A stretch of DNA of 53,723 nucleotides. Source: Bacteroidota bacterium (GTDB lineage: Bacteria; Bacteroidota; Bacteroidia; JABDFU01). Below are positions 708 through 47,630 of the stretch, piece after piece. The position numbers and the translations under genes are program-made. The first letter of the stretch is position 1, and every line of letters begins with the position of its first letter. The stretch covers positions 1-53,723 of the forward strand of contig JABDEY010000006.1 in the NCBI GenBank assembly GCA_013286805.1. The letters are read 5' to 3'. Under the pieces are notes generated by a model. That model was given only the letters and a program-made list of their open reading frames with translations, did no database searches and had not been told where the DNA came from.

Positions 708-3197
708 ATGATATTCAGGTTTAAAAGGGGAAAAGTAAAAGGTGAAAAATTCCTGAAAGAGGTCACACCCATTTTTGCAATTGAAAATGATGTGATTATT
801 CTGAAGGATGGAAGAGTGGCAGTAGGTTATCAGGTATATGGCTCATCATTCGAAAGCCTGCAGGCTAATCAGTACGAGCATTTTTGCAAAACCTTTGATC
901 GTGCATTCTGTGGTCTTCCGACCGATTATATTGTACAAAAGACAGATGTGTATGCAAATTGTTTCTTTCGGGAAGGCAGGGAGCCGGAAAACTTTAAGGA
1001 AAAGGGTTTTTTTGAAAGGGAATCAATCAATTATTTTTCAAACAGGCCGGTGTTAAAACAAACCAGCTATCTGTTTGTCATTAGCAATTCACTTAATAAC
1101 AGGAAGAGTACAACTTTTGCAAATACATTTCTGTGGGGCGATAAAGTTCAGTCCAGGGATTTTAAAAATATAGCTGAACGCATACGTGAGGCTGTAAGCA
1201 AGGGTAATTCATTTATGGAGAGCCTGAATGCCAGTGGGCAGATAAAATCAGCAAGACTAAATACAGCACAGATGAAGGCACTGGAATATCAGTTGCTGAA
1301 TTGTGAATTTAAAGATTCAGTAAATGCAGGTGTGGCACCTTATAAGAATATGTACAATGATTTGAGTGCATTTGTAATTGGCGAAAGAAAAATAAATGTG
1401 ACTTCCATGGAGCAGATGGGTGAAGAGATATTCTATTCAATTCCGAATGATTACGGACTGGATGCACCTTATATGTACCGCCTTGGAATTTACCTCCAGT
1501 TTCCGCATGTAACTGTTTGTAATTGGTGGAAAGAAGATACATTGATTCAATTAAAGAAACTGGATCGGCAACGAAACCAGCAGGCTGTTTTTTCAAAAGT
1601 GGGAGGTCAGAGTGCGGATATAAAACAGGAAGAGCTTTCAAATTATACAGCGCATGTGCGTGCGAATGATCTGAAATTTATTTCTGTTTCCATACAGGTG
1701 ATTACATTTCCAACAAGTGAAAGGGCAAGGGAAGAACAGCTTCAGTGCGTCAGGGATGCGATGAGGGCAACCTGTAATACAGAACCCTTGCTGGAGACAT
1801 TTGATAATGCATCTTCTTTTTTTTCCTGCCTGCCTGGAGGAGCTGCCCAGAATATACGATGGGTGTTAACAACAAATGAAATGGCTTCCTGTTTTGCAAA
1901 CTTTACGAATGAATTTATTAGTAAAAATCAGGGAGATTACATCTGTGATCGCTTCCGGAACCTTGTTTACCTCGATTTATTCGACAGAAGCCTTAACAAT
2001 CAAAATGCAATTTGCATTGGTCCTTCCGGTTCCGGAAAATCATTTACAATGGGCCATTTTATTGTTCAGCGTTATGAAAGAAAGGAAAGGCAGAACATCA
2101 TTGATGTAGGAGGGACCTACAGGAATATATTTGAAAATTTAGGTTCAAACGATTTGACTGGTGACGTCCGGTATTTTGAATACAATCCTGAAAATCCGAT
2201 TTCTTTCAATCCTTTTTTAATTGATAAAGATAAAGAAGGAAACTATTCTCTGTCGGATGACAAATCAGGTGTTTTATTAACCCTTTTATCCCTTTTGATA
2301 AAAGGAAAAGAGGGGAAATTCAGCCAGATAGAATGGCCTATTTTACAGCATTTCATAGAACTATATTATCAGCAGCTGAACCTAACGGATGAAGGTGTCA
2401 GGCCTTTGCCAAATTTGGAAAATTTCATTCTTTGGCTCAAAGAATATGTTGAAAATCATAAAGATAATCCGGCAGTAAAAATGCGAATTGACCGTATAAA
2501 TTATGCGGATCTGGGGTTTATTCTTGAACCATACATAACCGGCAAATACCGGAAACTTTTGAATTCTCCGGAGCTGCTGAATATTTCTGATTACCGGCTT
2601 GTTTGTTTTGACATGGCGAGGATTAAGGACGATAAAATCCTTTACCCGGTAATCTCCTTTTTATTGATAGAACTTATTCTGGATGTCATCAGGAAATATC
2701 CGGATGATAAAAAGCATTTTATGATGGATGAAGCCTGGTCAATGCTGAGCGAAAGTATGGGGGAATTCGTTGAGTATCTGTACCGGACGATACGGAAATG
2801 CAACGGTTCAATGACTATCATTACTCAGGGAATAGATGAACTTGAAACGATTATAGGAGCTACAATTAAAAGTAAATGTGAAACGAAAATAATTTTAAAT
2901 CATACGACGGACGCGGAGATCAAAAAAATGGGGATAGGGATGGGGCTGACAACGGCAGAAATGCAAAAAGTGGCGAGTATCCGGGTAAATAAGGAATGCC
3001 GTGAATTATTTATAAAACAGGGAGCTCACTCAAATGTTTTTGTTCTAGAAGTTCCTCCCCAGGAGCATGCAGTTCTTACCTCCAATCCGGTAGAACGCAA
3101 TCATTTGAATAAACTAAAATTCACCTATAAAAATCTGCAGTTTGCAATTAGGCAATGGGTGGAAGATAAAAACAAAGGAGTATTTGATGGAATATAA
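708..3197 (+). CDS. traG: TraG-family conjugation ATPase (VirB4-like)
   Basis: 829 aa with Walker A 'CIGPSGSGKSFTMGHF' and Walker B-like 'KKHFMMDEAW', N-terminal 'PIFAIENDVIILKDGRVAVGYQV' typical of Bacteroidetes TraG. Confidence 0.93.
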   Translation: MIFRFKRGKVKGEKFLKEVTPIFAIENDVIILKDGRVAVGYQVYGSSFESLQANQYEHFCKTFDRAFCGLPTDYIVQKTDVYANCFFREGREPENFKEKGFFERESINYFSNRPVLKQTSYLFVISNSLNNRKSTTFANTFLWGDKVQSRDFKNIAERIREAVSKGNSFMESLNASGQIKSARLNTAQMKALEYQLLNCEFKDSVNAGVAPYKNMYNDLSAFVIGERKINVTSMEQMGEEIFYSIPNDYGLDAPYMYRLGIYLQFPHVTVCNWWKEDTLIQLKKLDRQRNQQAVFSKVGGQSADIKQEELSNYTAHVRANDLKFISVSIQVITFPTSERAREEQLQCVRDAMRATCNTEPLLETFDNASSFFSCLPGGAAQNIRWVLTTNEMASCFANFTNEFISKNQGDYICDRFRNLVYLDLFDRSLNNQNAICIGPSGSGKSFTMGHFIVQRYERKERQNIIDVGGTYRNIFENLGSNDLTGDVRYFEYNPENPISFNPFLIDKDKEGNYSLSDDKSGVLLTLLSLLIKGKEGKFSQIEWPILQHFIELYYQQLNLTDEGVRPLPNLENFILWLKEYVENHKDNPAVKMRIDRINYADLGFILEPYITGKYRKLLNSPELLNISDYRLVCFDMARIKDDKILYPVISFLLIELILDVIRKYPDDKKHFMMDEAWSMLSESMGEFVEYLYRTIRKCNGSMTIITQGIDELETIIGATIKSKCETKIILNHTTDAEIKKMGIGMGLTTAEMQKVASIRVNKECRELFIKQGAHSNVFVLEVPPQEHAVLTSNPVERNHLNKLKFTYKNLQFAIRQWVEDKNKGVFDGI

Positions 3198-4212
3198 TTG
3201 TTCAGCAGCACTGGATCAGAGTGTAAATGAGTTCACTGCAAACTACGGTGTTACAGATGTGGCTAATATGTACAGTGCAGCTGTTTCAGTTGCTTCAGAT
3301 GTGAAGGCTGTTTGTCTACCGCTTGTAATGATTGCATTTACATTTGTTTTTCTTGGGCAGATGACGAAATGGGTCCTTGGAGAAAGAGAACTCAATATAC
3401 TGCGATTTGGAAGGTTTCTGATTTTACTGGTTTGCCTTGTGAATTATGAAGAGGTACTGGCTCAGGTAAACGGTATAATTGCCTATTTCGCAAATGCGGT
3501 TGGTCCTTCTCTTGGTAATTACAGTTCCGGAGCTTCACTTACCGACAAGGTAAATCAATTGCTGACCTATAATAAAAGCAAACAGGATTACAGTATCTGG
3601 AAGGATGGTCTTTCCAACTTATTGGATTGGCTGGTTGCAAATTGTTCACACCTGATCATTATTGTTTCAAGAGCAGTAATTTATTGCATACGGGAGTTAT
3701 ACATGATGTTTTTAATGGCAGTAGGACCTGTAGCCGTTTTGCTTTCAATGTTCCCTTTGTTTGAAAAAACTGCCGGACATTGGTTGAAAGCTTATCTAAG
3801 TGCAGGTTGCTGGGCTTTAACGATGGGTGTTTTGGACAGGCTTCTGAATGCTTACCTGGATCGCATGCTTGGTTCACACGACGGGCAGGGATTAATCGTT
3901 ATGAACATAGGCATTGCATTGATGTATCTCATGGTTCCATACATTACAAATAAGTACATAGGTGGGGTACACAGTCAGTTTATGGGAAAAATTTCCGGAG
4001 TGGCAACTGGGGTGGCAGGTGTTGGCAGGCGCATTGATAATGCGATGGGTGGTGTTGCATTTGCAATGAAGCGGAAGAATATAGAAACCGAAGAGGCTGG
4101 CATAATAGCCGGCATGAGAAATTCACCATTGGCACCCAAACCGCCTTCCTGGATATTTGGAATTTCTAAACAATCAGATGCACTTTACGATGGAGACAGC
4201 AGACTTTTTTAA
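3187..4212 (+). CDS. traJ: Conjugative transposon TraJ-like polytopic membrane protein (VirB6-like)
   Basis: Start ATG at 3187 (MEYNCSAALDQS...) overlaps the traG end; multiple TM helices; position after traG. Confidence 0.8.
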   Translation: MEYNCSAALDQSVNEFTANYGVTDVANMYSAAVSVASDVKAVCLPLVMIAFTFVFLGQMTKWVLGERELNILRFGRFLILLVCLVNYEEVLAQVNGIIAYFANAVGPSLGNYSSGASLTDKVNQLLTYNKSKQDYSIWKDGLSNLLDWLVANCSHLIIIVSRAVIYCIRELYMMFLMAVGPVAVLLSMFPLFEKTAGHWLKAYLSAGCWALTMGVLDRLLNAYLDRMLGSHDGQGLIVMNIGIALMYLMVPYITNKYIGGVHSQFMGKISGVATGVAGVGRRIDNAMGGVAFAMKRKNIETEEAGIIAGMRNSPLAPKPPSWIFGISKQSDALYDGDSRLF

Positions 4213-4834
4213 AACACTGAACAGATTCAAAATGCTGGCTATTGTGGCCATCCTGCTATCCGGAATGCTGACCTTGCTTTTTGCTGTATTATACATTGTG
4301 GAAAAAAATGTGAAGGAAGCAACAAGCTACATAGCTACAGACGCAGGAACATTTTTAATTAAAAGAAATGAGTTAAATATCCGACAGCCCTGGGAGGTGA
4401 AAAACCATACAAAACTTATTCTTGAACATTTATTTGAAAACGACAGTTATACGTATATCCCGAACCTGGAAGCAGCCTTGCACCTGATGGATAATATGAT
4501 CGGAATGAAAACGAGGGACATGTTAAGTAAATCAGGCCTTTATGATCTGCTCAGGAAGGAAAATGCCTATACAAAGATCTATTTTGATTCTGTTGTGGTG
4601 AAGGAAATGGTCCAACCCTATAAGGTTCATGCCTATTTTAAGCAAACGGTCATGTGGAGAGGGATGAACCAGCTGGTTCCTTACGGAGTGCTGTTAACTG
4701 TCAGTGAGGATTCAAGAAGCGAACAAAATCCATTTGGTTTACTTGTAAATCAGTTTGACCTGATAAAGTATACACCTGAGGTTTCAGAAAAGATCAAATT
4801 GCAACCCGATAGCCTGAAAGGGGAACGCAGATGA
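4190..4834 (+). CDS. traK: Conjugative transposon TraK-like protein (VirB8-like)
   Basis: METADFFKTLNRFKMLAIVAILLSGMLTLLFAV...: single N-terminal TM then a periplasmic domain; overlaps the traJ end; synteny. Confidence 0.8.
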   Translation: METADFFKTLNRFKMLAIVAILLSGMLTLLFAVLYIVEKNVKEATSYIATDAGTFLIKRNELNIRQPWEVKNHTKLILEHLFENDSYTYIPNLEAALHLMDNMIGMKTRDMLSKSGLYDLLRKENAYTKIYFDSVVVKEMVQPYKVHAYFKQTVMWRGMNQLVPYGVLLTVSEDSRSEQNPFGLLVNQFDLIKYTPEVSEKIKLQPDSLKGERR

Positions 4835-5652
4835 AACTTTGCCGGATTTCCTTTTTACTGATTTGGTTCAGGATAATGAATGCGCAACAAATGAACGATA
4901 AAGTGGATACCATCTATTGTACAGACAGTAATACAAGTTATGCAATTTTTAAAGACAGAGTTGAGCTGGTCGATATTGGGAACCCCGCTGATTATGCTTC
5001 TCAGATTGAGGATAACAGTGTTTTTGTGAAGTCTTTGAAACCCAATTCTCCGGCCTCTACCATGCTTGTTAAAACGGGCAAAGATTATTATTTCAGCGTA
5101 TTAAAGTACCAGGAAGAGAACAAAAAGTTTTTTTATGATTTTGCTGCTGTTGAAAATGACAAAATAAAGGGCAATGATAAGCCAACTTTAGTTTCCATGA
5201 GGGAGCTTGTTGAAAAAAAACTATCGCGGGTTGTTGCAGGGCGAAATGAACTTGAAACAATGGGTTTCATTACCACTTTCATCGAAGCTGAAGTAGGAGT
5301 GATCAGAAATGATAACCAGAACACTTACCTTAAAATTATTCTAAAAAACAAGAGCTCTATCCCTTACAGGCTTGATTTTATTTCATTTCAATATTACAGA
5401 CATATGAAAAAAGGTTTTGCGAAAAAAGCGAAGGCCTCCGGAATGGAAGTTTTCCCGGTTGTCAGTCCTGTTATTCCGGAAATTTCACCCTACTCCTGTA
5501 AACCGCTGGGTTATGCTATTCCTTCATTTGGATTAGCCGGGAAAGGCTATTTAATGATTTCTTTCCGGGAATCATCCGGAGACCGGGTATTAACAATTAA
5601 GGTAAAAGGTGCTGAAATTCAAAAAGCAAGTGTAATTGAAAATGGGAACTAA
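4831..5652 (+). CDS. traN: Conjugative transposon TraN-like (DUF4138) protein
   Basis: ATGA overlap with traK; secreted protein with VirB9-like pattern (TSYAIFKDRVELVDIGNPADYASQIEDNSVFVKSLKPNSPASTMLVKTGKDYYFSVLKY). Confidence 0.7.
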   Translation: MKLCRISFLLIWFRIMNAQQMNDKVDTIYCTDSNTSYAIFKDRVELVDIGNPADYASQIEDNSVFVKSLKPNSPASTMLVKTGKDYYFSVLKYQEENKKFFYDFAAVENDKIKGNDKPTLVSMRELVEKKLSRVVAGRNELETMGFITTFIEAEVGVIRNDNQNTYLKIILKNKSSIPYRLDFISFQYYRHMKKGFAKKAKASGMEVFPVVSPVIPEISPYSCKPLGYAIPSFGLAGKGYLMISFRESSGDRVLTIKVKGAEIQKASVIENGN

Positions 5653-6643
5653 GCTATTGGCAAAAAGTCTTGTTTGCTCCGGTGCAGGTTTATTGGCTGT
5701 ACTTATAGCCATCAGAATGGTTACGATTCAGAATACAGATCAATTAGTTGAAATAAAAAAAATGGATGGGATACAAATAGAGAACATGAAAATTCCTGAT
5801 AAGGAGAAGAAAACAACTCTACTTGACAATATGAAGCGGGAGGAAGAAAAAAAGAAAATGGGTCTGGATAATATGGAATACGTTCAGCTTGATTTTAGGA
5901 AACTAGCTTCACAAAGTCAAAATAACCCACCTCAACAAGCAGGTGATCTTCTATTTCCAAGGCATATTTCAATTCCCCAAATGCACCTGAAAAGGGATCT
6001 GATAGTACTTCCTTCAGCACGATCCTTAAAAACGGCTCAGGCAAAAATGCCTGCAACTATACAACCAGAACAAGCGGTAGAATTGAAACAAACAGAACAA
6101 CCTGTAGAATCAGTCGGAATGGTCACTCATCCCTTTGGAACAATAAAAAACACTGCTTCAACCGGAAAGAAACTTAATGAAGCTCTGAAGGATTATTACG
6201 CTGCCCAGGTATATGGAGATCAAAAATTATTGGCTAATACAGCAATGGTGGTTCGTAATATGGAAGATATGTACTATAATGAACTGCCACTTCCTAAAAA
6301 TTCACTCTTTTACGGAGTAGCTTCCTTTTCAGGAAACAGGGTCATTGTACATATTAATAAAGTGAGAACAAGTGCAGGGGAATTTCCTGTAAAGTACAAT
6401 ATTATGGACAATGACAGAATAGAAGGACTTTATTATCAGGCGCCTATAGATGAAGTTGCAGCGAGCACCGCGGATAATGCAAATTTGAATAACAATGTAA
6501 GCAGCAGCCTTTCTTATGGGAGTATGCTCAATAATGTTTCCAAAGGAGCTGTGACAAGTGCGAAACAACTGCTTCAAAAGGCAAGATCCTTAACCTTAGA
6601 GGAGGGCTACTCACTTTTTTTAATGCCTGTTAAAAAACAATAA
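5636..6643 (+). CDS. traM: Conjugative transposon TraM-like protein (VirB10-like)
   Basis: N-terminal TM, linker, and C-terminal 'LFYGVASFSGNRVIVHINKVRTSAGEFPVKYNIMDNDRIEGLYYQAP', typical of TraM; overlaps the traN-like end. Confidence 0.78.
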   Translation: MKMGTKLLAKSLVCSGAGLLAVLIAIRMVTIQNTDQLVEIKKMDGIQIENMKIPDKEKKTTLLDNMKREEEKKKMGLDNMEYVQLDFRKLASQSQNNPPQQAGDLLFPRHISIPQMHLKRDLIVLPSARSLKTAQAKMPATIQPEQAVELKQTEQPVESVGMVTHPFGTIKNTASTGKKLNEALKDYYAAQVYGDQKLLANTAMVVRNMEDMYYNELPLPKNSLFYGVASFSGNRVIVHINKVRTSAGEFPVKYNIMDNDRIEGLYYQAPIDEVAASTADNANLNNNVSSSLSYGSMLNNVSKGAVTSAKQLLQKARSLTLEEGYSLFLMPVKKQ

Positions 6644-6647
6644 ATAA

Positions 6648-7544
6648 ATGAAAAAGGTAACTATTACTGTTCTGATTTTTTCTTGCCTGAATGCTGCCGC
6701 ACAGGGGGTGCTGGCGGTTCCGGGACAAGCAACTATGATAGCCAACCAGGGAATTCAAATTAGTCAGCAGGCTACTGCTATAGCCAATGCAGTCCAGTTG
6801 CTTAAAACAACAGAGACCACTTATGCAACACTTCAGGCAGAGGGCCAGCAACTTGTTTATATAAAGAATTACATGCAAGAGGCCTCTGATAACCTGAAGA
6901 ATGTTGGGAGCATAAAAAATTTACAATTGAACCAGATTGAAAGCTTTTTGGATGGACTTCTTTGCCTAAAGGGAGGTAACCGCTACTACCAACTTTCATT
7001 TTTAAACATTGTCAACCTGATTACCGGAGCGCTTGGGAAATGTGATAACACAAATGTTTTTAACGCGACCTGGGCCGGAATGACAAAAAATCTGAACGAA
7101 CAGATGAGTGCAAGCAGTCAGAATCTGAATCAGTACGTTGCTCAGTTTAGTTCTCAGCAATCTATGATTGACCAAAACAATAAAGTCAATACCTCCCTGG
7201 ATACTGCCTATTCCGCCCAACAAGTAGGTAATAGCTACAATGAGCAAACAAAAGTCGAACTGGCACTGAAATACAAAGCAATGAGTGATGACTTGATGAA
7301 AATGTCACATGAACTTAACCAGGCATTAAACCTTGAAGGAACGGACGCAATCCAGGTAACAAAAGGAGAACGGCTTATGCTTTTGGCAAAAGCGATGGAC
7401 TACCAGATGAAAGCAATGGAATACGAAGAAAAATATGCCCAGCTATTAAATGAAGGAACAGCATTTAGTCAAAATGATAAATCGGAAATTGCCAATTATC
7501 AACGGGCAATGGGTATTCATGAAATGGTAATGTTCCGGCAATAG
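6648..7544 (+). CDS. Secreted alpha-helical TraI/VirB5-like (DUF4141/TrbJ-type) conjugation protein
   Basis: Signal peptide ('LIFSCLNAAAQG') followed by a coiled-coil-rich body; within the tra operon 4 bp after traM. Confidence 0.5.
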   Translation: MKKVTITVLIFSCLNAAAQGVLAVPGQATMIANQGIQISQQATAIANAVQLLKTTETTYATLQAEGQQLVYIKNYMQEASDNLKNVGSIKNLQLNQIESFLDGLLCLKGGNRYYQLSFLNIVNLITGALGKCDNTNVFNATWAGMTKNLNEQMSASSQNLNQYVAQFSSQQSMIDQNNKVNTSLDTAYSAQQVGNSYNEQTKVELALKYKAMSDDLMKMSHELNQALNLEGTDAIQVTKGERLMLLAKAMDYQMKAMEYEEKYAQLLNEGTAFSQNDKSEIANYQRAMGIHEMVMFRQ

Positions 7545-7546
7545 GT

Positions 7547-7644
7547 GGTAATCGGTAAACAGTAAACAGTAAACAGTAAACAGTAAATAGTAAACAGTAA
7601 ATAGTAAACAGTAAATAGTAAACAGTATATAGTAATCGGTAAAA
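7547..7644. repeat. Heptanucleotide tandem repeat, 14 units x 7 bp (consensus AGTAAAC/T)
   Basis: Units read directly: ggtaatc ggtaaac agtaaac agtaaac agtaaac agtaaat agtaaac agtaaat agtaaac agtaaat agtaaac agtatat agtaatc ggtaaaa. Confidence 0.97.
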
Positions 7645-7669
7645 ATTTAACGAAAAGAATACAAACAAT

Positions 7670-10372
7670 ATGAAAAAGGTACAAACGATATTACTATTTT
7701 ATCTTCTTGGTCTGCTGACCATAAGCCAGGCCCAAAACAAAAGTGTTTCCATAGGGACTTTAACCCCGGATAATTCTGCCATCCTTGACCTCGAAAGCAC
7801 CTCTCAGGGATTTCTAATGACAAGATTGGATTCCCTTGGTATAAATGCCATCGGTACACCGGCAAAAGGCCTTATTGTATTTAATCATCAGGATGAATGC
7901 TATTGGTACAAAAAGGCCAATCATTGGGTAAGGCTATGCTCAACTGATTCTCTTGTCAATCTTTTTATAAATACAAAATACCTGAAGGCAGACACAATAA
8001 TAAATAATTACATCAGTGGCAATACGGCCAATTTCGATACAATCCTATCCAACTATATTAAGACAAATAGCATATATGGTGATTCTGCTATTTTCAATAT
8101 ACTGAATGCACACTATTCCAAACTGGACACTATTTTCAATACTTATTTAGTGAGCCAGCACATAAAGGCCGACACCATCATTAATCAATATTTCAGCGGC
8201 CGGATTATTAACGGTGATACGATCATTTCAAAATTTTTCGCAGGGGGTAATGCCAATCTGGATACAATTATAAATCAATACCTGACGAGTAAATTGGTAC
8301 GGACTGATTCGCTCTTAATAAATGGACAAACGATCCAAAACGTAATTACAAATGCGATAGATTCCACGGCCTGGTTGCTGCGGGGAAATACAGGAACTAA
8401 CCCGGCAATTAATTATCTAGGAACAGCCGATAATCAGGATTTGGTATTTCGCACCAATAACACAGAACGCATCCATCTACTTAAAACAGGAGAAGCAGGA
8501 TTTGGGACAAATGCGCCGATATCTGCGGTTGATATACAGGGTCAAATTACATTAAGGGCAGGAGCTGCCAGCGGATCAATTTTACAATCTGATGTAAATG
8601 GAACCGGTTCCTGGCAGAGTGTGTCAAATATTGTAAATAACACTTTTCTAAACAATCTTTCCTGGGGGCTTTTAGGGAATTCAGGCACCAGTCCAGCTAC
8701 AAATTTTGTAGGGACGACGGATGCAAATGATTTAGTTTTCAAAAGCTTCAATAGTGAAGGTCTGCGCCTGCAGGTGGGAGGAAATGTTGGCATTGGCACC
8801 GTGAATCCTTCAGCCACACTACATGTGTATTCCTCAAAAAGCATATTTACAACACTGCAATTAGAGAGTGCAACCGGTTACCCGATGTTGTTTTTAAAGG
8901 CAGACGGAGCAGGGTTAAATAATAAAAATTTTATTACATACGCTGATATTACGGGCAATCTGTATTTCACGGTAAACAATGATGCACAAACAGCCTCTAC
9001 CAACTGGCTGCAAATGAATCGTACCGGATTAACTATAAATACTGTCTGTTTTCCAAATGGCAATGTAGGAATTGGAACAACTGCCCCCGGTGCAGCAATC
9101 GACATTAGAAGTGGCAATCCAAGTGATAACATGCGGATTGGAGACAATTCCAGCAGCACTTCCTATTTTAAAATCGGGAGAAATGCTAAAACCTTCAATC
9201 TGGATTTTACTTCCATGCAGGGAGCCTCAGCCGGATTTACATTTATGAGCGGAAAGTTTGGCGTTGGAACCACCACTCCTGCAGAATTATTCAGTGTATG
9301 CAGCGGTTCATTAGTTACGATAAATACAACAGGGAATATGAATGTAATCTCCGGGACTGCCACCTCTCCTGCAATCGGCTTCAACAAAAATCAAACAGGT
9401 TTTTATTCCGGAGGGCAAAATTTAATGAGCACAACAATAAACGGCTCTGCCTGTTTTACAATTGACCGGGGGAATTACAATATCAGTTTGTTTACTCCTG
9501 TTGCAACCGCTTCTGTTATTAGCAGTGGTACGGGGAACCTGCTTTTTGGAAATGCCGCAATAGCAGGCTCAGATAATATTATTTTAACCGCTGATCCAAG
9601 TAATCTCTCAAGCATTAGCGGAACTGATAATTACGTTTTGGGAAGTCATGTTTCTGTAACAGCATCAGGCAATATCATCGCAGGGATTGCAAATAGTGTT
9701 GGTTCCCCTGACGCTGTAATTTTGGGAAGCAACAATACGCTAACAGGCGGGGCTGGGAATAATCTGCTAATGGGCAGTTCCAATGTGCTATCCGGAGCGA
9801 CTACCGGTAATAACATTATTTTAGGTGGCAGCTGTACCTTAACATCTGTCTTTGGATCTGCTGTTCTCAATCCGAATAATATAGCTTTCTCGCCGTCCGC
9901 TAACCTTACCTTTTATGGCATTTTCCCGCTTGGTTATAAATTTTATTCCAACACTACTTTTACGGCTGGAGTTGAAGTAGCAGCCGGAGGAGGTTCCTGG
10001 GCTTCCATTTCGGATAGAAATGTAAAGGAAAATATCACTGAATTAAATTATCAGGATGTTCTATCAGCTTTCTGTGCGCTACCGGTGGCCCAATGGTCCT
10101 ATATCTCCCAAAGACCGGATCCTGAAGGTAAATACAATCAGTATAAGGTGCAGCCAAAACATATTGGCGTTATGGCGCAGGATTTTAAAGCGGCCTTTGG
10201 ATATGGTGAGTTTGAAAACAGAATAACGGATTCTGACCTGATGGGTGTATTAAGTGCTTCTGTCGTGGCCTTAAATGAAAAGACAAATAAAATTGACAAC
10301 CTGCAAAAACAAGTTTCTGCTTTAACGTTTCTTGTAAATAAACTCATCGGTCAGAACGCTCAGGACAAATAG
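7670..10372 (+). CDS. Peptidase S74 (intramolecular chaperone) tail-fibre/trimeric-adhesin-like surface protein
   Basis: Sec signal; N-terminal 'SVSIGTLTPDNSAILDLESTSQGFLMTRLDS...GTPAKGLIVFN'; eight 15-aa repeats; YadA-head-like 'NNIIL..' repeats; C-terminal S74 motif 'SISDRNVKENITEL...QYKVQPKHIGVMAQDF' plus a terminal coiled coil. Confidence 0.88.
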   Translation: MKKVQTILLFYLLGLLTISQAQNKSVSIGTLTPDNSAILDLESTSQGFLMTRLDSLGINAIGTPAKGLIVFNHQDECYWYKKANHWVRLCSTDSLVNLFINTKYLKADTIINNYISGNTANFDTILSNYIKTNSIYGDSAIFNILNAHYSKLDTIFNTYLVSQHIKADTIINQYFSGRIINGDTIISKFFAGGNANLDTIINQYLTSKLVRTDSLLINGQTIQNVITNAIDSTAWLLRGNTGTNPAINYLGTADNQDLVFRTNNTERIHLLKTGEAGFGTNAPISAVDIQGQITLRAGAASGSILQSDVNGTGSWQSVSNIVNNTFLNNLSWGLLGNSGTSPATNFVGTTDANDLVFKSFNSEGLRLQVGGNVGIGTVNPSATLHVYSSKSIFTTLQLESATGYPMLFLKADGAGLNNKNFITYADITGNLYFTVNNDAQTASTNWLQMNRTGLTINTVCFPNGNVGIGTTAPGAAIDIRSGNPSDNMRIGDNSSSTSYFKIGRNAKTFNLDFTSMQGASAGFTFMSGKFGVGTTTPAELFSVCSGSLVTINTTGNMNVISGTATSPAIGFNKNQTGFYSGGQNLMSTTINGSACFTIDRGNYNISLFTPVATASVISSGTGNLLFGNAAIAGSDNIILTADPSNLSSISGTDNYVLGSHVSVTASGNIIAGIANSVGSPDAVILGSNNTLTGGAGNNLLMGSSNVLSGATTGNNIILGGSCTLTSVFGSAVLNPNNIAFSPSANLTFYGIFPLGYKFYSNTTFTAGVEVAAGGGSWASISDRNVKENITELNYQDVLSAFCALPVAQWSYISQRPDPEGKYNQYKVQPKHIGVMAQDFKAAFGYGEFENRITDSDLMGVLSASVVALNEKTNKIDNLQKQVSALTFLVNKLIGQNAQDK
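7946..8305 (+). repeat. Eight in-frame 45-bp (15-aa) protein repeats, D[TS]xIxNxYxxxxxxxx, in the S74 fibre
   Basis: DSLVNLFINTKYLKA/DTIINNYISGNTANF/DTILSNYIKTNSIYG/DSAIFNILNAHYSKL/DTIFNTYLVSQHIKA/DTIINQYFSGRIING/DTIISKFFAGGNANL/DTIINQYLTSKLVRT: each exactly 15 aa. Confidence 0.95.
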
Positions 10373-10374
10373 AA

Positions 10375-12123
10375 ATGAAAAAAATGATAATTCCTGCATT
10401 TCTGATGATTAGCCTGTATTGCCAGGCTCAGCTGCTGGTTAATAATGGTCAGGTGCTTCACACAGACCACGGGGCGAAAATACGCATACAGGGCTCCTTT
10501 ATGAATGACTCCTCAGCCTTTTCAGATCACAATGGAAATATGGTTATTGATTCTTCTTTTATAAACGTTCATAAGAGTACACAAAAAGGGGATGGAGCAT
10601 ATGGTGTTTATGGGGATTGGCAGAACTCAGCTCATTTTTTAAGAGATACCAGCTATGTACACCTCCTTGGAAATTTGCAATATCTCAAAGGAGATAGTGC
10701 AACCTCTTTTTACAACTTATCTGCAGAGGGAAGTGGAAGAAAAATAATGCGTATAAACGCCTCTGTGTTTAACTGTTTGCAACTCCATGGTTTGGAGCTG
10801 GCAACTGATCAGGACACCTTATTTATTGAAAATGCCAGCCCAGGCGGACTACTTTCAAATACCGTATTTGGCTCCGAAGGCTTTGTTTCAACATTGGATT
10901 CCGGCTGTCTGGTCCGTAAGACTTCCGGCACTAATACGTATTATTTTCCATTTGGTTCCATAGCAGGAACACCCAGGTTCCGGCCTGTGATCATCACTCC
11001 TGATTCCGGAAGTGTAAATCAGTATGGACTGTCCATGCAAAACAAGAAAGCTGATCTGGATAAATACTATGTAGCCAATAAAGATTCGGATGTGTGTAAA
11101 GTAAATCCCCTTTTTTATCACACCATTCAAAGATTATCAGGTAGTTCAGCATGCGGTATCACAATTGGATATTTAAAAGCAATTGATGGCATTTTTTCTG
11201 AAATAGGTAATTGGCAAATGACAACAAGGAAATGGGAAAATATTCATAATGGAGCAGTGGGTATTATTAATAATTATCAGGCTGTAAACAGGGCAGCATG
11301 GAACTCATTTACCAGCAAACCTTTTGCCTTGCTTAATTTTAAACCTGTTATTGATTCCATCACCGGGCCAGATCTTTTGTGTAAGCAAATCCCTGAAACT
11401 TTCTCATCAGTTACTGATAACCTTTCCGATTATGTTTTCTCCTGGAGTTCAACGGGCGGTAATTTCAAAGGAGGCAGCACCCAACCGGATGTAACGCTGC
11501 TATTTACAGTCCCAGGGAGTAAAAATGTATTCTTAACAATTTTAGATACGGTTACTGGTTGTGCTTCAGGTTTGTTTACCAAATCCATTCAGGTATTTGC
11601 AGGTCCACGGGCAGGGTTTGGCATTTCTTATCAGAACCTTTTTGAAAATGTACCCATCACATTCTTGGATAGCAGCAGTGGATCTGTCCAATGGGCCTGG
11701 AACTTTGGTAATGGGCAAAATTCGACGATCGAAAACCCTCAAACAGCTTTTGCAAATTCCGGGGTATATACAATCCGGCAAATCGTGACTGACAAAAATG
11801 GTTGTCAGGATTCAGTTTCAAAAAGCCTTGATATAAAATGTTCGCTTAAAGTGCCTAATGTATTTACCCCTAACGGAGACGGGGTGAACGATGTTTTCCT
11901 TATTCAGGGACTCTGTATAACGCAGTACACACTTGAAATTCTGGATCGCTGGGGGTTGCTGGTTTATAGTGGAAACCAGTCAAGTGCTGCATGGGATGGA
12001 CATACCCCCTCGGGACAGATGTGCCCGGAAGGAACATACTATTACACCTTAAAAGCTGAAATTGAAAATGAAACTGAACGTACAACTGAAAACAGTGCTG
12101 GATTTATAACCCTCTTAAAATGA
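10375..12123 (+). CDS. PKD-domain surface protein with gliding-motility-associated C-terminal (CHU_C, type B T9SS sorting) domain
   Basis: PKD 'PITFLDSSSGSVQWAWNFGNGQNSTIENPQTAFANSGVYTI' and CHU_C 'VPNVFTPNGDGVNDVFLIQGLCITQYTLEILDRWGLLVYSG...GQMCPEGTYYYTL'. Confidence 0.88.
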   Translation: MKKMIIPAFLMISLYCQAQLLVNNGQVLHTDHGAKIRIQGSFMNDSSAFSDHNGNMVIDSSFINVHKSTQKGDGAYGVYGDWQNSAHFLRDTSYVHLLGNLQYLKGDSATSFYNLSAEGSGRKIMRINASVFNCLQLHGLELATDQDTLFIENASPGGLLSNTVFGSEGFVSTLDSGCLVRKTSGTNTYYFPFGSIAGTPRFRPVIITPDSGSVNQYGLSMQNKKADLDKYYVANKDSDVCKVNPLFYHTIQRLSGSSACGITIGYLKAIDGIFSEIGNWQMTTRKWENIHNGAVGIINNYQAVNRAAWNSFTSKPFALLNFKPVIDSITGPDLLCKQIPETFSSVTDNLSDYVFSWSSTGGNFKGGSTQPDVTLLFTVPGSKNVFLTILDTVTGCASGLFTKSIQVFAGPRAGFGISYQNLFENVPITFLDSSSGSVQWAWNFGNGQNSTIENPQTAFANSGVYTIRQIVTDKNGCQDSVSKSLDIKCSLKVPNVFTPNGDGVNDVFLIQGLCITQYTLEILDRWGLLVYSGNQSSAAWDGHTPSGQMCPEGTYYYTLKAEIENETERTTENSAGFITLLK

Positions 12124-13145
12124 AACTGAACGGCCTTCTTTTTATAATAATCGTGACAAGCAGCTGTTACGGTCAGGTACCGGATACAGCTGAAACGTGT
12201 AAACTTCACATTTCAGCGAATGGGGAGACTGGAATTGTAACATATTACGGGGCCCTAAATCAAAGATCAGTTCCATTTTCTTCAAACAATCGCCCTTCCA
12301 GTCAACTTGGTTTATTTGGGCAATACAAAGCTTTTTTGATTTCGGTCCATTATGCTCATCTGCAGTTTGGTGAAGCAAATAATAACTACCAAAAGGCGGG
12401 AAATTTTAAAGCAACCGGAAACGCTATAGGCATTGACCTCTCATATCATTCATTTTATAAAAAGAGGGTAAGTGTGGAATTGGGAGCTGGCATTGAAAAG
12501 TTACTATTCAATCTTTCAGAGGATCTTCAGGATGAACAGGGAGAGCCCTTTTACTATTGGAGTGATGGAACCATAAGAAATATGCCGCAAACTTTTACGA
12601 ATCTCTTTATTGCAAAGCAGGTTACAAGAGACTATAAATATTCAACAGATGAGGGAAATTTTAAAAGTTTACTTGCAAGCTTAAGCGCTGACCTGAATTT
12701 ACGGATTTCAAGACGCCTTGCTGCAAATTTCCGATCCACACTTTTCCTGCCACTCCAGGGAAAACTTGACAATATAAAAAGCCCTTCTGCTGCCTTTTTA
12801 TTTTTTAACAGGGTAGGGGTCACTTCTTATTTTGGCAAAGCGCCAAGGCAAACGGAAAATCCCAGGTACAAGGACGTGGATTTTCAGGCATTGGAAATGC
12901 AGGATACGGATGGGGATGGGGTAAAGGATTTTAAGGACCGGTGCCCTGATACACCAAAGGGAGTAAAAGTAGATCACCAGGGTTGTTTAATTGATTCAGA
13001 CGGGGATGGCATCCCGGATATCTACGATAAGGAACCGCACACAAAAAAAAGGATGTTGACAGATAAAGATGGGATAGGGCAGGCCCCCTCAAAAGAAATA
13101 ATTGATGGTAAAGATGATGGAAACAATGATGAAAAGGATGAGTAA
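12120..13145 (+). CDS. Outer-membrane beta-barrel-like protein with C-terminal thrombospondin type-3 (Ca-binding) repeats, no OmpA domain
   Basis: ATGA overlap with the previous gene; 'DTDGDGVKDFKDRCPDTPKGVKVDHQGCLIDSDGDGIPDIYDKEP'; acidic C-terminus directly after the repeats. Confidence 0.7.
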   Translation: MKLNGLLFIIIVTSSCYGQVPDTAETCKLHISANGETGIVTYYGALNQRSVPFSSNNRPSSQLGLFGQYKAFLISVHYAHLQFGEANNNYQKAGNFKATGNAIGIDLSYHSFYKKRVSVELGAGIEKLLFNLSEDLQDEQGEPFYYWSDGTIRNMPQTFTNLFIAKQVTRDYKYSTDEGNFKSLLASLSADLNLRISRRLAANFRSTLFLPLQGKLDNIKSPSAAFLFFNRVGVTSYFGKAPRQTENPRYKDVDFQALEMQDTDGDGVKDFKDRCPDTPKGVKVDHQGCLIDSDGDGIPDIYDKEPHTKKRMLTDKDGIGQAPSKEIIDGKDDGNNDEKDE

Positions 13146-13181
13146 TCAAATGAATAATCTATGATTAGTCGAATATAACCT

Positions 13182-13724
13182 ATGAAACCCCTGTATTATA
13201 TTTTACTGCTCTTTTGTATCCCTTCACTTGGGCAAACAGTAACCGACACTTCTGCTGCGGAGGAATCCATAAAACTGCGCCACATTGAAGGGATAAGGGG
13301 CTTTGATTTATCCTATGGCTTAAATCCATATGGCAATCAATTCGGCTTTGGTTATGCGCAATATGAAAGCGACAATTTTATCGGCCGGATAGTTTTAAAT
13401 TATGAATCAGGGAAAATTAATTTAACAACATACTCCACCCAGTATTTATTTATTGAGTTTAACAGCACAGTGTGCAGATTGAAAAAACGTTTCTTTCTGA
13501 ATTTAGCATATGGAGCCCTTGCGGGCCAGGAAAACTCAGGCAATGAGGTGTTAAATACAAAAGCCAACACCTTTGAATATGGATTGCTGTTGGGAGTAAA
13601 CGCTGAAATATACATCCTCAATAGATTTTCAGTTCTTATAGAGTTCAAACAGATTTGGGATAATGGTTCCGGCTTTGGCTCTTTCAGATATTATTCGAAT
13701 ACAGGTTTAAGATTCAATTTATAA
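13182..13724 (+). CDS. traO: Conjugative transposon TraO-like outer-membrane beta-barrel protein
   Basis: 180 aa, signal peptide, alternating beta pattern, 'RFFLNLAYGALAGQENSGNE...FEYGLLLGVNAEIYILNRFSVLIEFKQIW' similar to TraO of Bacteroidetes ICEs; same-operon context. Confidence 0.55.
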   Translation: MKPLYYILLLFCIPSLGQTVTDTSAAEESIKLRHIEGIRGFDLSYGLNPYGNQFGFGYAQYESDNFIGRIVLNYESGKINLTTYSTQYLFIEFNSTVCRLKKRFFLNLAYGALAGQENSGNEVLNTKANTFEYGLLLGVNAEIYILNRFSVLIEFKQIWDNGSGFGSFRYYSNTGLRFNL

Positions 13725-13736
13725 AATGAAAACACG

Positions 13737-16700
13737 ATGAAGAAAATGTTTCTGGTCTTTGCAATCGCCAGGCTGGTTGCTGTTTTGTATGGCCAACCCT
13801 TGACAAAAATAAATGATATGACCTTTGGAGGAGTAAACTCAGATAGGGCCATATTCACTTTCCTCGATACGTTTGGAAATTGTTATGTGTTCGGCAACAT
13901 CACCCTCTCCTCACCACCCGCAGATATTACTGAACAATTCGGAGGAAGTGATTATTCGGCAGTTAGATATGATAAAAACGGAAATAAAGTTTGGAGTAAT
14001 TCGTATGGAGGCTCAGAGGATGATATTTTATACAAGGTAATTCCAAATTCTACCGGCTTTTTGCTGATAGGCATTTCATTCAGCGGCAATAACGGTAATA
14101 AGACCAGCACTGCAAGCTGCATTAATCCTTATCCCGGCTCTTTGATCAATAGCAGCAGAAGTGTTTGGCTGGTTCAAATCGACTTTTTGGGAAATATCCT
14201 CAGTCAAAATCAGGTTTGCACAGATGTAGCGTTTGGGTCAACATATAGCAGGGCCCAGGTGGAGGAAATTACAGATTTTAAGCAGCTCTCCAATAAGGAG
14301 TATATTCTATTTGGCAATTTTACAAGCTTCAGTGGCCCGATAGGTACTAATTTCCTGATCAACAATTTTATCGGGTATATGCGTTTGGACACCTCTTACA
14401 ATTACATAAAAGCTGTACCTGTTCTTGGTTCACCAGTTCAGACCGCTGTTCCCGCACAATATGTGACCTATACCGAAGTGTATAATGGTATAGCAGGAGA
14501 AGTGCTGGAATTGCCTAATGGCAATTTAATATTTTCTTACACCTCCGAGCAAACCTATAACCGGGCTGGCTGTGGTGATAATTCTACGAACGTTTTTTCT
14601 TATGCCAGGACCTCCTTGTATTCCATGCTCGATGTACCCATGGGGAATCAGGGATATGGAAGCGACTATGGTTATTCAGCAGCGAGGAAAATGATCTATT
14701 ATAATAATTCGGTTTATCTTTTCATGCAGCACATTCCACTCCCGGTAAATACAGTTAACTATTATGGGACGTGTGCCCCACTTCCATTCTATATCCGGAC
14801 TGCTCCTGCAAGAACCAATACAGGGAAGATGGATTGCTGGATCGTTAAACTTTCAACTGCAATGGTGCCTGAAGCGGATTATGCCTTCGGGGCAAACGAT
14901 GATGTGACTGTGGATGATGTAATTACAGATGGAACAAATTTAATCCTGGGAACAACGGTAAACAGTGGCATTGGATTTGACAAAACAAGCCCTGGCAAGG
15001 GAGGTGAGGATTACTGGATTTTAAATATTGACCCAATCACTATGACCAGCAATTCAGATTATTGTTATGGTGGCAGTAATGATGATCTTTTGAGTCGAAT
15101 AGGATTAATGAACGATGTTTTTCTTTTAACCGGCAGTTCTTACAGTGATGCCGGATTTGATAAGTCAGCAAATAACCTCTCAGGTAGCACTGCAACTACT
15201 GATCAGTGGACTGTAGTTTTGTGCCAAACCCCTGCTCCGCCAGTGATACAGGAGGCAGGCAGTTTTAACCTGTTGCTATGCTGTAAAAATTCTCCGGCTA
15301 CAGTTAACATTAGCAATCCCGTACCAGGGTACAGCTATAATTGGTACATCAGTGCGACGGGCCCTTCTGTTTATACAGGGAATTCCTATACTACGCCTTC
15401 CAACATTTTAATCTCAACATCCTTGTTCGTCGATCAAAATAATGGGTATTGCGGCAGTTCCCGGACAGGTTTTAGTTTATATCCGATTCCCACGCCGAAA
15501 CCGCCTTCTATTTCCCCGGATACAATAGTCTGTAAGGGTAAAACACTTAGGGTAATTGCTCAAACTGATACGCTGGGTATTGGCACATTTCCGGGATATA
15601 CCCGCTGGTATGATTCCACTGGTACACATCTGATCCATACCGGCGATACATTGGAAATGAAAAACTTTACAGACAATAAAACATTTTATGTGAGTACCAT
15701 TGATAGCGTTTATGTTCCCGCCTCAAATTTTGGTCCCCTTGTTTGTGAGAGTGCAGAAGAGAGAATTCAAACATCTGTTGATACAGCCCAAACTCCGGCA
15801 ATGACAATGCCTCCCTATTATTGCTACGGGACGAGTGCTACGCTGAGTCTGACAAATGAGTTAAGCGGGAACACAGTAGGCTGGATCCATGGTATTAACC
15901 TCCCGATACCCGGAAATTCCTTTACAATTAATAATTTAATCAGCAATGACAGCGTATTGGTTGTACAAGTGGATAAATACGGTTGCGAATCGCCCTGGAG
16001 GAAATTTATTTTAAATGTGGCGAAGGATTCTGCTTTGGCTCCAATTATTCCGGTAAAGAGCATGTATTGCTATGGAACTTCTCCGGTTTTCAGTGTTACA
16101 AATGGTGCTGGCAATGTTATAAAATGGTACGACACGCAAAATATGCTTGTGTATACAGGTAACAAATTTACACTGCCCAACATTCATTTAACTGACACAA
16201 TAAGCCTCTTCCAGATTCAACCCTCAGGCTGCACTTCACTGGAGAATACATACATTTTTAAGGTGGCTGGCGACAGCTCCCAAATGCCCCAGTCTGATTT
16301 GAAAGCAGGTTATTGCAGGGGCGATAATGTTGTCCTGACAGTTTCCTATCCGCTTAATGCGGGTATTAACTGGTACAATTCCTCAGGTAAACTTATTTAT
16401 TCAGGGAATCCATTTGTTCAAAATAATATTTTGGTAAATGATACCATTTATACCAGTTCTGTTGGAACCAACGGATGTGTTTCGCCTTTGGAAAAACTTA
16501 TCGTTGCAGCAACGATGCCCACATCCGCTTTTAGTGCCACCGATACAACAATGAGTCCCGGTGATGCGACTCATTTTTTAAATACTTCTACCGCCGGAAT
16601 AACATTTAACTGGAGCTTTGGTGACAACTCAGTTTCCGCATCTGTTGACCCCTGGCATTTCTATAATTCTCCGGGAGTATATACCATTCAGTTAATAACC

Positions 16701-17027
16701 ACAGATGCCAATGGTTGCACCGACACCCTGACAAAGCACTCTTATATTCATGTTGGGGCATTTATGAGTATTAATGAGTTAATTACTGCTACAGGGTTTA
16801 GGATCTACCCCAACCCATTTAAAGATCAGCTTACCATTGAGAATAAAACCGGAGGAGAGCCGTGCACTATTTGTCTTACGGATGTTTTAGGGCAAGTTAT
16901 TGATCTTGAGATCGTATATGGAAGTCGTTCAATAAGTACTGATGGATTACCTGCCGGGATATATTTTATTCAGATTAAAAAAGGGCAGGCGATAAGAACA
17001 GTCAAATTACTAAAGGCTGATAAATGA
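13737..17027 (+). CDS. Large T9SS-secreted surface protein: N-terminal propeller-like repeats, Ig-like modules, PKD, type A T9SS sorting domain
   Basis: 1096 aa; 'GGSEDDILYKV', 'GGSNDDLLSRI' repeats; PKD 'FNWSFGDNSVSASVDPWHFYNSPGVYTIQLITTDANGC'; C-term 'GFRIYPNPFKDQLTIENKTGG...GIYFIQIKKGQAIRTVKLLK'. Confidence 0.85.
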   Translation: MKKMFLVFAIARLVAVLYGQPLTKINDMTFGGVNSDRAIFTFLDTFGNCYVFGNITLSSPPADITEQFGGSDYSAVRYDKNGNKVWSNSYGGSEDDILYKVIPNSTGFLLIGISFSGNNGNKTSTASCINPYPGSLINSSRSVWLVQIDFLGNILSQNQVCTDVAFGSTYSRAQVEEITDFKQLSNKEYILFGNFTSFSGPIGTNFLINNFIGYMRLDTSYNYIKAVPVLGSPVQTAVPAQYVTYTEVYNGIAGEVLELPNGNLIFSYTSEQTYNRAGCGDNSTNVFSYARTSLYSMLDVPMGNQGYGSDYGYSAARKMIYYNNSVYLFMQHIPLPVNTVNYYGTCAPLPFYIRTAPARTNTGKMDCWIVKLSTAMVPEADYAFGANDDVTVDDVITDGTNLILGTTVNSGIGFDKTSPGKGGEDYWILNIDPITMTSNSDYCYGGSNDDLLSRIGLMNDVFLLTGSSYSDAGFDKSANNLSGSTATTDQWTVVLCQTPAPPVIQEAGSFNLLLCCKNSPATVNISNPVPGYSYNWYISATGPSVYTGNSYTTPSNILISTSLFVDQNNGYCGSSRTGFSLYPIPTPKPPSISPDTIVCKGKTLRVIAQTDTLGIGTFPGYTRWYDSTGTHLIHTGDTLEMKNFTDNKTFYVSTIDSVYVPASNFGPLVCESAEERIQTSVDTAQTPAMTMPPYYCYGTSATLSLTNELSGNTVGWIHGINLPIPGNSFTINNLISNDSVLVVQVDKYGCESPWRKFILNVAKDSALAPIIPVKSMYCYGTSPVFSVTNGAGNVIKWYDTQNMLVYTGNKFTLPNIHLTDTISLFQIQPSGCTSLENTYIFKVAGDSSQMPQSDLKAGYCRGDNVVLTVSYPLNAGINWYNSSGKLIYSGNPFVQNNILVNDTIYTSSVGTNGCVSPLEKLIVAATMPTSAFSATDTTMSPGDATHFLNTSTAGITFNWSFGDNSVSASVDPWHFYNSPGVYTIQLITTDANGCTDTLTKHSYIHVGAFMSINELITATGFRIYPNPFKDQLTIENKTGGEPCTICLTDVLGQVIDLEIVYGSRSISTDGLPAGIYFIQIKKGQAIRTVKLLKADK

Positions 17028-17707
17028 AAAGTGCAATCCTGTTATTTGCCTTACTGCTGTTCTATAGCTGTGATACCAGAAAGGATTTTAATGCGGGTCT
17101 GAATTTAACCCCACAGATACAGATAAGAAGGGACGACTCTAATTTTAATCCTCAGGGAGGCTACCAGCAAATCTTAACAGATTCCCTAAAATTAAGTCAA
17201 GGTCTTTATTATTTCGATTACTGGTTACAAACAAATGAGATTCCGCCCAGTGTGTCAGTAACTGTAAATATTACCGGAACAGGATTTTTTCAAAATCCTG
17301 TAGAGCCAGGAATGGTTAGGTATATATTCTGTCCTAATACCGTGGGATTTCAAAGTGTAAATTTAAAAGTTGTTGATGATTATGGTCTGACTGCAGGTTC
17401 ACGCCTGAATCTAACGACTTTTTTTAATTTACCTCCTGTTGCCAGTTTAACTTACCTGAATACCTCAATCCTGGACCCGCTCCAATATAAGCTGGATGCC
17501 AGTGGGAGTTATGATAAGGATGCCAAATACGGGGGAACAATCATTAATTATCAGTTTAGTATTTCGCCCAACTATCAGGTTACTACTCCTTATAATTTTA
17601 TCAGCTATATTTTTCCTTCTGCTGGTCATTATCAAATAACTTTAAGGGTGGAAGATAATGATTATGAATGGTCTCCGGGAAATGTACTTTATATTAATGT
17701 ACCTTGA
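17024..17707 (+). CDS. Putative lipoprotein with PKD-like domain
   Basis: ATGA overlap with the upstream gene; lipobox 'LLFALLLFYSC'; 'LDASGSYDKDAKYGGTIINYQFSI...AGHYQITLRVEDND'. Confidence 0.6.
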   Translation: MKSAILLFALLLFYSCDTRKDFNAGLNLTPQIQIRRDDSNFNPQGGYQQILTDSLKLSQGLYYFDYWLQTNEIPPSVSVTVNITGTGFFQNPVEPGMVRYIFCPNTVGFQSVNLKVVDDYGLTAGSRLNLTTFFNLPPVASLTYLNTSILDPLQYKLDASGSYDKDAKYGGTIINYQFSISPNYQVTTPYNFISYIFPSAGHYQITLRVEDNDYEWSPGNVLYINVP

Positions 17708-17737
17708 AATACAGGATGAGCAGGTTTGCCTAAGTAC

Positions 17738-43519: not shown

Positions 43520-43606
43520 AATATCCTGTAAGAAACTCCCTTAATTCCTGAGAGGCATTAAGGTTATAGCCTACTTTGGCTCATGACTAATAAACAATAC
43601 AATACA

Positions 43607-45031: not shown

Positions 45032-45110
45032 TCATCTCTTATGGGATACTTTTCGGTATATTTTGAGTGTTAGTCTTTTGGTCAAGCATTAGGATTGAAA
45101 ACAGCTCTAA

Positions 45111-45134
45111 AACTGTAAACCAAACTGTAAACCA
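45111..45134. repeat. Exact 12-bp tandem direct repeat upstream of integrase
   Basis: AACTGTAAACCA x2. Confidence 0.9.
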
Positions 45135-45368
45135 GAAAATCAGGATTTAGTATTTTTCTCTGTAACTACCTGATTTTAAAAGTGATCCCGAGGCGACCTT
45201 CCTTTTTGCATTCATTTACACTCATTTACTCCAACCTGCTGTAAAATCAGCACTTCTAAAGATTTCTGAATTCTTTTTGATGCATATAAAAGCATCGAAA
45301 AGCATAACAACCTGTACCAAAATCAGTACCACTTTCCTGAATTAACTTTACATAAATAATATAATGAC

Positions 45369-46604: not shown

Positions 46605-46628
46605 ATCCGGAGGCTGAACAGGAGTTTT

Positions 46629-46713
46629 GAAACCATTATAGAAAATATGAATTTCCATAAGTCAAGAAATTTCTATTATTTATTTCTCCTGAAACCATTA
46701 TATATCTTGACTT
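46629..46713. repeat. Interleaved 12-bp direct repeat (GAAACCATTATA) and 9-bp inverted repeat (AAGTCAAGA/TCTTGACTT) 3' of the integrase
   Basis: DR at 46629-46640 and 46691-46702; IR arms at 46659-46667 and 46705-46713. Confidence 0.85.
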
Positions 46714-46859
46714 TGAGGACAAATTTGCATATATTCGTTACTATAAAGTGTAGTTATTTTACGGCTTTATGTTAGTATGGGAGTAATTATTTAAATTAGA
46801 AATTGAGAGATTTGAGTTAACGAAAGTACAATCAATCGGGCGAAAAATTAGCCCTCGAC

Positions 46860-47630
46860 ATGAGTAACAGTGGCTTTTCTCCTGATTTGTATAACGCATG
46901 TAATAAAAACAACTTAGGAGTCCCCAAAAATTGCAATGGTTATCAATTTGCTCACACGGGAGTTGGCTATGCCGGCTTTTATTGTGAAGCTGGAGCAGAA
47001 CAGAGAAAATACCTTGAAGTTAAACTGGATTCAACGTTAAAATCCGGAAAAAAATATTGTGTAGAATATTACGTAAGCCTTGCTGATACTGTGCAAGAAG
47101 CTTTTGGAGCTTTTGGAGTTTATTTTTCCAAAGACTCCGTTTTAAGTACAGATTATCATGCACTGCCTGTTATTCCGCAGGTTGTTATGCCGGATACAGA
47201 TTATATAACTGATAAAATTAACTGGACGTTAATAACTGGAACCTGTTTTGCCAATGGCGGAAAACAGTTTATTACCATAGGGAATTTCAATAATGATGCG
47301 AATACAAAGTTGGTTAAAGTTCCCGGTGGGAATGAGGATTATGTGACGGAATGCAGCAGCGGTCAAGGAATAAACGAGTTTACAAATAATCTTCAATTTA
47401 ATTTGTACCCGAACCCAGCGACAACCGAAGTAACAATAGAAACATCAATAGATAAGCCCTATTCAATACGAATTTTTAGCCTACTTGGGGAATTAATTTA
47501 CTCAAAAGAGCAGTTAGCGAGTGAAAAGGCAGATATAGAGTTGACCGGTCTTTCCAAAGGGGTTTATGTAGTGGAATTGATTGAAACGTCCTCTGGGCTG
47601 ATTGGCAGAAAAAAAATAATTGTTCAGTGA
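46860..47630 (+). pseudogene. 5'-truncated T9SS type A surface protein (no signal peptide)
   Basis: Begins mid-domain (SPDLYNACNKNNLGVPKNCNGYQFAHTGVGYAGFYC...), in-frame stop 42 bp upstream, intact C-term 'FNLYPNPATTEVTIETSIDKPYSIRIFSLLGELIYSKE...GVYVVELIETSSGLIGRKKIIVQ'. Confidence 0.65.

Follow-up and report, generated by a model that had tools for sequence, protein, structure and literature searches.

The window analysed here, a stretch of 53,723 nucleotides, forms the start (G000:C6, positions 1-53723) of contig C6 of G000, a Bacteroidia MAG of 2.3 Mb that is 56% complete and whose congeners are uncultured 'Bacteroidetes bacterium' MAGs. Every gene between positions 1 and 17707 lies on the + strand, in the order traE-traF-traG-traJ-traK-traN-traM-TraI/VirB5-like, S74 fibre, type B, TSP3 barrel, TraO, type A and lipoprotein; every ORF read agrees with the single-strand run from traE to the lipoprotein (17707) that had been noted from the sequence.

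The contig begins within traE (1-282, +), which has lost its 5' end and shows 78% identity to traE of G001:C19. Because of this truncation, a relaxase, coupling protein or integrase cannot be read beside the operon. The following genes are a traF-containing ORF (131-553, +; traF profile, E 9e-28) with its true start probably after 282, traG for a VirB4-type ATPase (708-3197, +; PF19044, 220 bits; TIGR03783, 239.7 bits, under the cut-off of 261.6), VirB6/TrbL-like traJ (3187-4212, +; PF04610, 25.3 bits, cut-off 25.9), traK (4190-4834, +; TIGR03781, E 4e-13, under cut-off; 72-83% identity to congeners), traN (DUF4138, VirB9-like; 4831-5652, +; PF13595, 61.7 bits, cut-off 31.1) and traM (5642-6643, +; PF12508, 90 bits, cut-off 25.1). 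For the Tra core, the Pfam matches to the TraG P-loop, DUF4138, TraM and TraO exceed their cut-offs, and the NCBIfam matches to TraG, TraK, TraM and TraN fall under theirs. The gene at 6648-7544 (+) encodes a TraI/VirB5-like periplasmic component with a signal peptide, of which the N-terminal ~95 residues matched CTnDOT-clade TraI in profile-profile comparison (prob 95.7); its predicted structure (pLDDT 39) was too poor for use.

Three surface genes follow. The S74 fibre (900 aa; 7670-10372, +; PF13884, 38.2 bits, cut-off 22) consists of a signal peptide, collar, GIGT repeats, a beta-roll-like stretch, the Peptidase_S74 (intramolecular chaperone) domain (10010-10198, +; PF13884) and a C-terminal coiled coil. 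S74 intramolecular chaperones are marked by a Ser...Lys dyad, and the motif S781-D-x-x-x-K786 is present in this domain as it is in the fibres of C44 and G001. Next come a 582-aa surface protein of T9SS type B (CHU_C) that includes PKD (10375-12123, +; PF13585, 79.5 bits; TIGR04131, 55.8 bits, cut-off 35) and an outer-membrane-barrel-like protein with TSP3 repeats (12120-13145, +; PF02412, 20.9 bits, under the cut-off of 25), for which the PDB match 5wtl (OmpA family) is confined to the TSP3 part. The latter was also considered as a 14-strand FadL-type PorP/SprF shuttle, a candidacy that was dropped since a search for a PorP_SprF Pfam match up to E 0.1 gave none, TSP_3 being the sole match.

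TraO, an outer-membrane T4SS protein (180 aa; 13182-13724, +), passes its profile narrowly (PF10626, 26.4 bits, cut-off 25), and the TraO profile of nine relatives matches CTnDOT-clade TraO (profile-profile, prob 98.8, E 1e-16), so that the TraO-like gene recognised earlier among the surface genes is a genuine T4SS gene and the surface genes therefore stand inside the tra operon. After 12 bp begins the gene of a T9SS type A surface protein of 1096 aa (13737-17027, +; PF19081 (Ig_7), 130.6 bits; PF18962 (Por_Secre_tail), 45.7 bits; TIGR04183, 51.0 bits, cut-off 23), composed of a probable beta-propeller at the N-terminus, then five Ig_7 domains, PKD and a C-terminal sorting domain. The N-terminus was modelled as all-beta at low confidence (pLDDT 53) with best fold matches mostly to propellers (CylK, PL24 lyase and PHL lectin), pointing to a probable beta-propeller. 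The length of the Ig-repeat protein varies from 746 to 1181 aa among the loci described below, a variation typical of adhesins. Both the type A and the type B proteins have C-terminal T9SS domains above cut-off and N-termini judged by eye to be signal peptides, and their export by T9SS is predicted. The domain calls of the fibre and of the two T9SS proteins agree with the identities originally given to them. The last gene encodes a lipoprotein with a PKD-like C-terminus (17024-17707, +; lipobox LFYSC/D) in the position of TraQ in CTnDOT-type operons; it has no Pfam match, and its weak hhalign match to TraQ (PF12988; prob 59, E 9e-5) makes homology only suggestive.

The tight packing described previously was confirmed, with 2 bp between the fibre stop and the type B start and ATGA overlaps (-4) at 12120, between the type B and barrel genes, and at 17024. 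From traG onward the intergenic gaps range from -23 to +36 bp, except for a gap of 125 bp (7545-7669) upstream of the fibre. This gap, which separates the fibre from the VirB5-like gene, holds a tandem array of the heptamer GTAAACA/GTAAATA in 12.7 copies (TRF; 7555-7643, +), which occurs once in the 2.3 Mb assembly. A promoter for the fibre could reside within the repeat-filled gap; promoter and terminator scans gave signals no better than shuffled sequence. A change in copy number of the array could vary fibre expression, and the paralogous operon G000:C44 is gap-free at the matching position.

The right edge of the tra element was placed at 17708-17737, where conserved chromosomal genes adjoin. 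The block SLT-M20-RF3-GAPDH-sigma-degP is, whole or in part, syntenic and free of tra genes in G001, G003 and G004, indicating that the lipoprotein gene is the last of the element. Base composition did not distinguish the tra genes, the surface module and the chromosome. At 45369-46604 of the window lies a tyrosine recombinase in which CTn-type arm-binding and SAM-like domains were recognised (PF17293, PF13102, PF00589); situated 28 kb past the tra end, with conserved chromosomal genes between, it probably belongs to another element. Four T9SS type A proteins flank it (43583-53601), one of them containing a tandem repeat of 165 bp (52198-53299).

Recurrence and exchange of the surface genes

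Linkage of surface genes to tra genes was detected at a total of seven tra loci in three families, with different flanks, a small sample in which five of the seven come from one genus. The paralogous operon G000:C44 in the same MAG contains the same eight genes in the same order from traM to the lipoprotein, and its fibre ATG overlaps the VirB5-like stop (TAATG), supporting co-translation. The order in G001:C19 is VirB5-like-fibre-type B-TraO-lipoprotein, with the Ig protein missing at its position. At G004:C53, G004:C28, G033:C14 and G102:C60, TraO is followed by the type A protein and then, where readable, by the lipoprotein. The fibre was formerly regarded as the centrepiece of the module, a view that has to be given up, as its cassette is optional, being present in three of the seven loci and missing from four. 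Some loci show rearrangements: the traM-VirB5-like-traO segment of G004:C53 is partly tandem-duplicated in mid-operon (L054, 4665-8316) with a traM/traO fusion ORF (6770-7417), and the type A Ig gene of G004:C28 is read in two overlapping ORFs (L055, 1-2877), a frameshift being likely. On G305:C98, genes that by eye resemble mobilisation genes lie downstream of the VirB5-like gene (L095, 3171-12806), and after them, on that strand too, comes a T9SS type A protein of 1672 aa bearing Ig_7 and FG-GAP repeats.

In the TraG tree, the six module-bearing loci that possess a readable traG form one clade (bootstrap 100), the sister group of which includes plasmids of Hymenobacter, Spirosoma, Fibrella, Rufibacter and Tunicatimonas (clade A). 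These plasmids share the tra order of C6 at a TraG identity of 31-38%, and several carry a DUF5712 relaxase and a coupling protein. They differ in that T9SS and S74 genes are absent both from the interval separating the VirB5-like gene from TraO and from the position immediately following TraO, as found in all of ten sister-clade loci (0/10). Surface genes at these positions thus distinguish the module loci (7/7) from the plasmid loci (0/10; Fisher p 5e-5, to be read with care for loci that are related). On related plasmids free of surface genes the TraO-profile gene comes directly after the VirB5-like gene, indicating that the fibre, type B and barrel genes interrupt the tra operon. About 1.8 kb beyond the traO-position gene, the complete plasmid of Hymenobacter sp. 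DG01 encodes a T9SS type A fn3 protein that is unrelated (L155, 3600-6140); it lies between the tra operon and the coupling-protein and relaxase genes and is possibly a parallel acquisition. Scans with the TraG alignment gave zero matches among viral contigs, and the scan of genome contigs gave congeners only.

Of the surface-gene families, the type A protein was found exclusively at tra loci. Among 395 Bacteroidia genomes, for each of which the best few candidates were considered, near-full-length homologues of its residues 1-500 occur beside traO only, in four genomes of three families, the remaining N-terminal matches being short and weak; a plasmid scan with the same N-terminus gave weak, mostly partial matches only. 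All four of these genomes fall among the 7 of 395 that bear this type of T4SS (p = 3.5e-8 over genomes and 5e-5 over families, again for the best few candidates per genome). Judged from this distribution, the type A Ig protein is a component specific to this T4SS lineage. The survey proposed for linkage of surface-gene homologues to tra therefore gave a divided answer, in that linkage held for the type A Ig protein within the same candidates and held only in part for the families of the fibre, the type B protein and the barrel, which are widespread off-tra. The type B N-terminus is present in 139 of the 395 Bacteroidia genomes, and 77 of 100 relatives have the TSP3 barrel, both mostly off-tra, a plasmid scan with the type B N-terminus giving zero matches. 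Chromosomes elsewhere also carry fibre/type B pairs away from tra genes, and G004:C4 has a complete fibre-barrel-type B cassette adjoining ribosomal-protein genes. Since these families are common on chromosomes, the cassette is probably an optional layer recruited from widespread chromosomal surface genes.

The genes of the C6 locus differ in their closest relatives. While traG-J-K are closest to G004:C53 (76-83%), the VirB5-like protein is 64% identical to that of G001 and 32% to that of C44, TraO, the type A protein and the lipoprotein are 54-68% identical to those of C44, C53 and C28, and the fibre is 76% identical to the C44 fibre. In AU tests, one tree for traM plus the VirB5-like gene and for TraO (plus type A and lipoprotein) was rejected in both directions (p <= 0.001). 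This discordance indicates that the surface block has been swapped between divergent tra backbones with its position unchanged. That the block moved and yet kept its place suggests selection for the combination, perhaps in partner recognition.

The same observations bear on an alternative, that the surface proteins are cargo passengers which serve host fitness (attachment, biofilm) and are transcribed with tra but take no part in DNA transfer. The chromosomal abundance of the fibre, type B and barrel families, the off-tra fibre/type B pairs and the four loci lacking the cassette are all as expected for cargo. The surface genes are placed, however, among T4SS genes within the tra operon and not in a region of cargo genes, the type A protein was found at tra loci only (395 genomes, best few candidates each), and the position was retained through exchange between backbones. 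We regard cargo as an unlikely explanation that nevertheless deserves to be kept in mind.

Conjugation genes and comparison with known systems

The tra contig of G033 carries ParA, a DUF5712 relaxase and a coupling protein, and coupling proteins were also found in G001, G004 and G102. In G000, a DUF5712 relaxase is located on contig C30, separate from the tra contig; a search for a coupling protein (PF02534) in this 56% complete genome detected none. On C30 there are also a protein with a start that by eye is Cas9-like (L139, 1227-3629) and apparent PRTRC-type plasmid genes. SprA was found in the congeners G001, G004 and G005 and in the module carriers G033 and G102, a search of the 56% complete G000 giving no match.

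The relaxase of G000 and the relaxase and coupling protein on the G033 tra contig favour conjugation over a repurposed T4SS, in which the adhesins would be the targeting part of an apparatus for protein delivery to, or attack on, other cells. Such a system could account for the coupling protein not found in the incomplete G000 and for two divergent T4SS copies within that genome, but it is at odds with ParA on the G033 contig, with the coupling proteins of the three other MAGs and with a domain search of the module, from which toxin and effector domains are absent; we consider it improbable. The T4SS activity is therefore likely conjugation, and the likely role of the surface proteins mating-pair formation.

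The C6 operon shares with CTnDOT-type operons homologous TraE, F, G, J, K, M, N and O, a TraI-like protein, and a small lipoprotein at or near the position after TraO. In contrast to the order E-F-G-I-J-K-M-N-O-Q of the CTnDOT-clade loci that were read for comparison, C6 has E-F-G-J-K-N-M-I-O, with traN before traM, the TraI-like gene after traM and surface genes on either side of TraO, and its TraG belongs to a separate clade. The comparison of this T4SS with a CTnDOT-type operon in the original prediction must be modified to this extent.

The conserved place of the Ig protein, with TraO before it and the TraQ-position lipoprotein after it, together with monophyly of the module-bearing T4SSs, would also agree with the Ig protein and fibre being structural parts, that is, extracellular pieces of the channel or pilus in this clade. 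This seems quite improbable, as the T9SS sorting signals predict export separate from the T4SS, the Ig-repeat lengths vary in the way usual for adhesins, and in G001 this place is without the Ig protein. Chance neighbourhood, or misassembly in which the end of a tra region was fused to a surface operon of the chromosome, is hardly credible, for although C6 is a MAG contig with a simple repeat (7555-7643) at the junction, the arrangement is repeated in seven loci of three families with different flanks and the repeat is unique in the assembly, which together count strongly against misassembly at the heptamer, and in G001 fibre and type B genes are independently joined to a VirB5-like gene of 64% identity.

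Large surface-anchored adhesins that are encoded by conjugative elements and promote the formation of mating pairs are known from Gram-positive bacteria, including PrgB of pCF10 and TeaA, which is needed for B. subtilis conjugation (PMC12857230, PMC8092201), and a further precedent has been described (PMC9045228). These are anchored by LPxTG or to the cell wall, in contrast to the T9SS C-terminal domains of the proteins described here, and no homologous adhesin domain was found. A large Ig-like surface protein, RSP, is encoded in the tra region of IncHI plasmids and is required for transfer in liquid (PMC6764697). RSP is proteobacterial, lacks a T9SS domain and is exported by the T4SS of the plasmid, whereas export by T9SS is predicted here. 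In Bacteroidota, a type B adhesin gene commonly has a sprF-like outer-membrane barrel gene directly downstream (PMC12618676, PMC9143113), and a barrel gene directly follows the type B gene in C6 too; the C6 barrel differs from these PorP/SprF-like shuttles in its TSP3 repeats, its lack of a PorP/SprF Pfam match and its tra linkage. Searches of the open-access literature brought up no report joining T9SS cargo to a conjugative T4SS.

Proposed role in mating-pair formation

Taken jointly, the best explanation, which we hold to be somewhat better than evenly balanced, is that the C6 tra region forms the right-hand portion of an integrated conjugative element that includes surface adhesins for mating. 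In the proposed mechanism, the T4SS would form the transfer channel, and the host T9SS would export the 1096-aa type A Ig/propeller protein, as well as the type B protein in cassette-bearing loci. The exported proteins would be anchored on the surface of the donor, beside TraO and the lipoprotein, and, together with the S74 fibre, may grip recipient cells to form or stabilise the mating pair. We infer co-transcription at the C6 locus, T9SS export, adhesion and the mating role.

By analogy with the known mating adhesins, we thus incline, by a modest degree, to the view that the surface proteins are T9SS-displayed mating-pair adhesins encoded in the tra operon of an integrated conjugative element. 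The sister-clade plasmids, which do without such surface genes, speak against this reading and weaken it.

Little is known of the means by which Bacteroidota conjugation systems locate recipients and keep hold of them. A T4SS review contrasts the conjugative pili of Gram-negative bacteria with the wall-anchored adhesins of Gram-positive bacteria (PMC12857230); if our reading is true, T9SS cargo would be a third solution beside these two and would explain part of host range. The type A Ig gene between traO and the lipoprotein would then be a specific candidate for mating-pair formation. Transfer of some elements would be tied to possession of T9SS, predicting which hosts are able to be donors. 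More tentatively, and with somewhat less than even confidence, we suggest that this lineage of Bacteroidia elements may rely on the host T9SS to display exchangeable adhesins that choose and hold mates, a single operon thereby coupling two secretion systems, so that swaps of the surface block would alter the range of partners.
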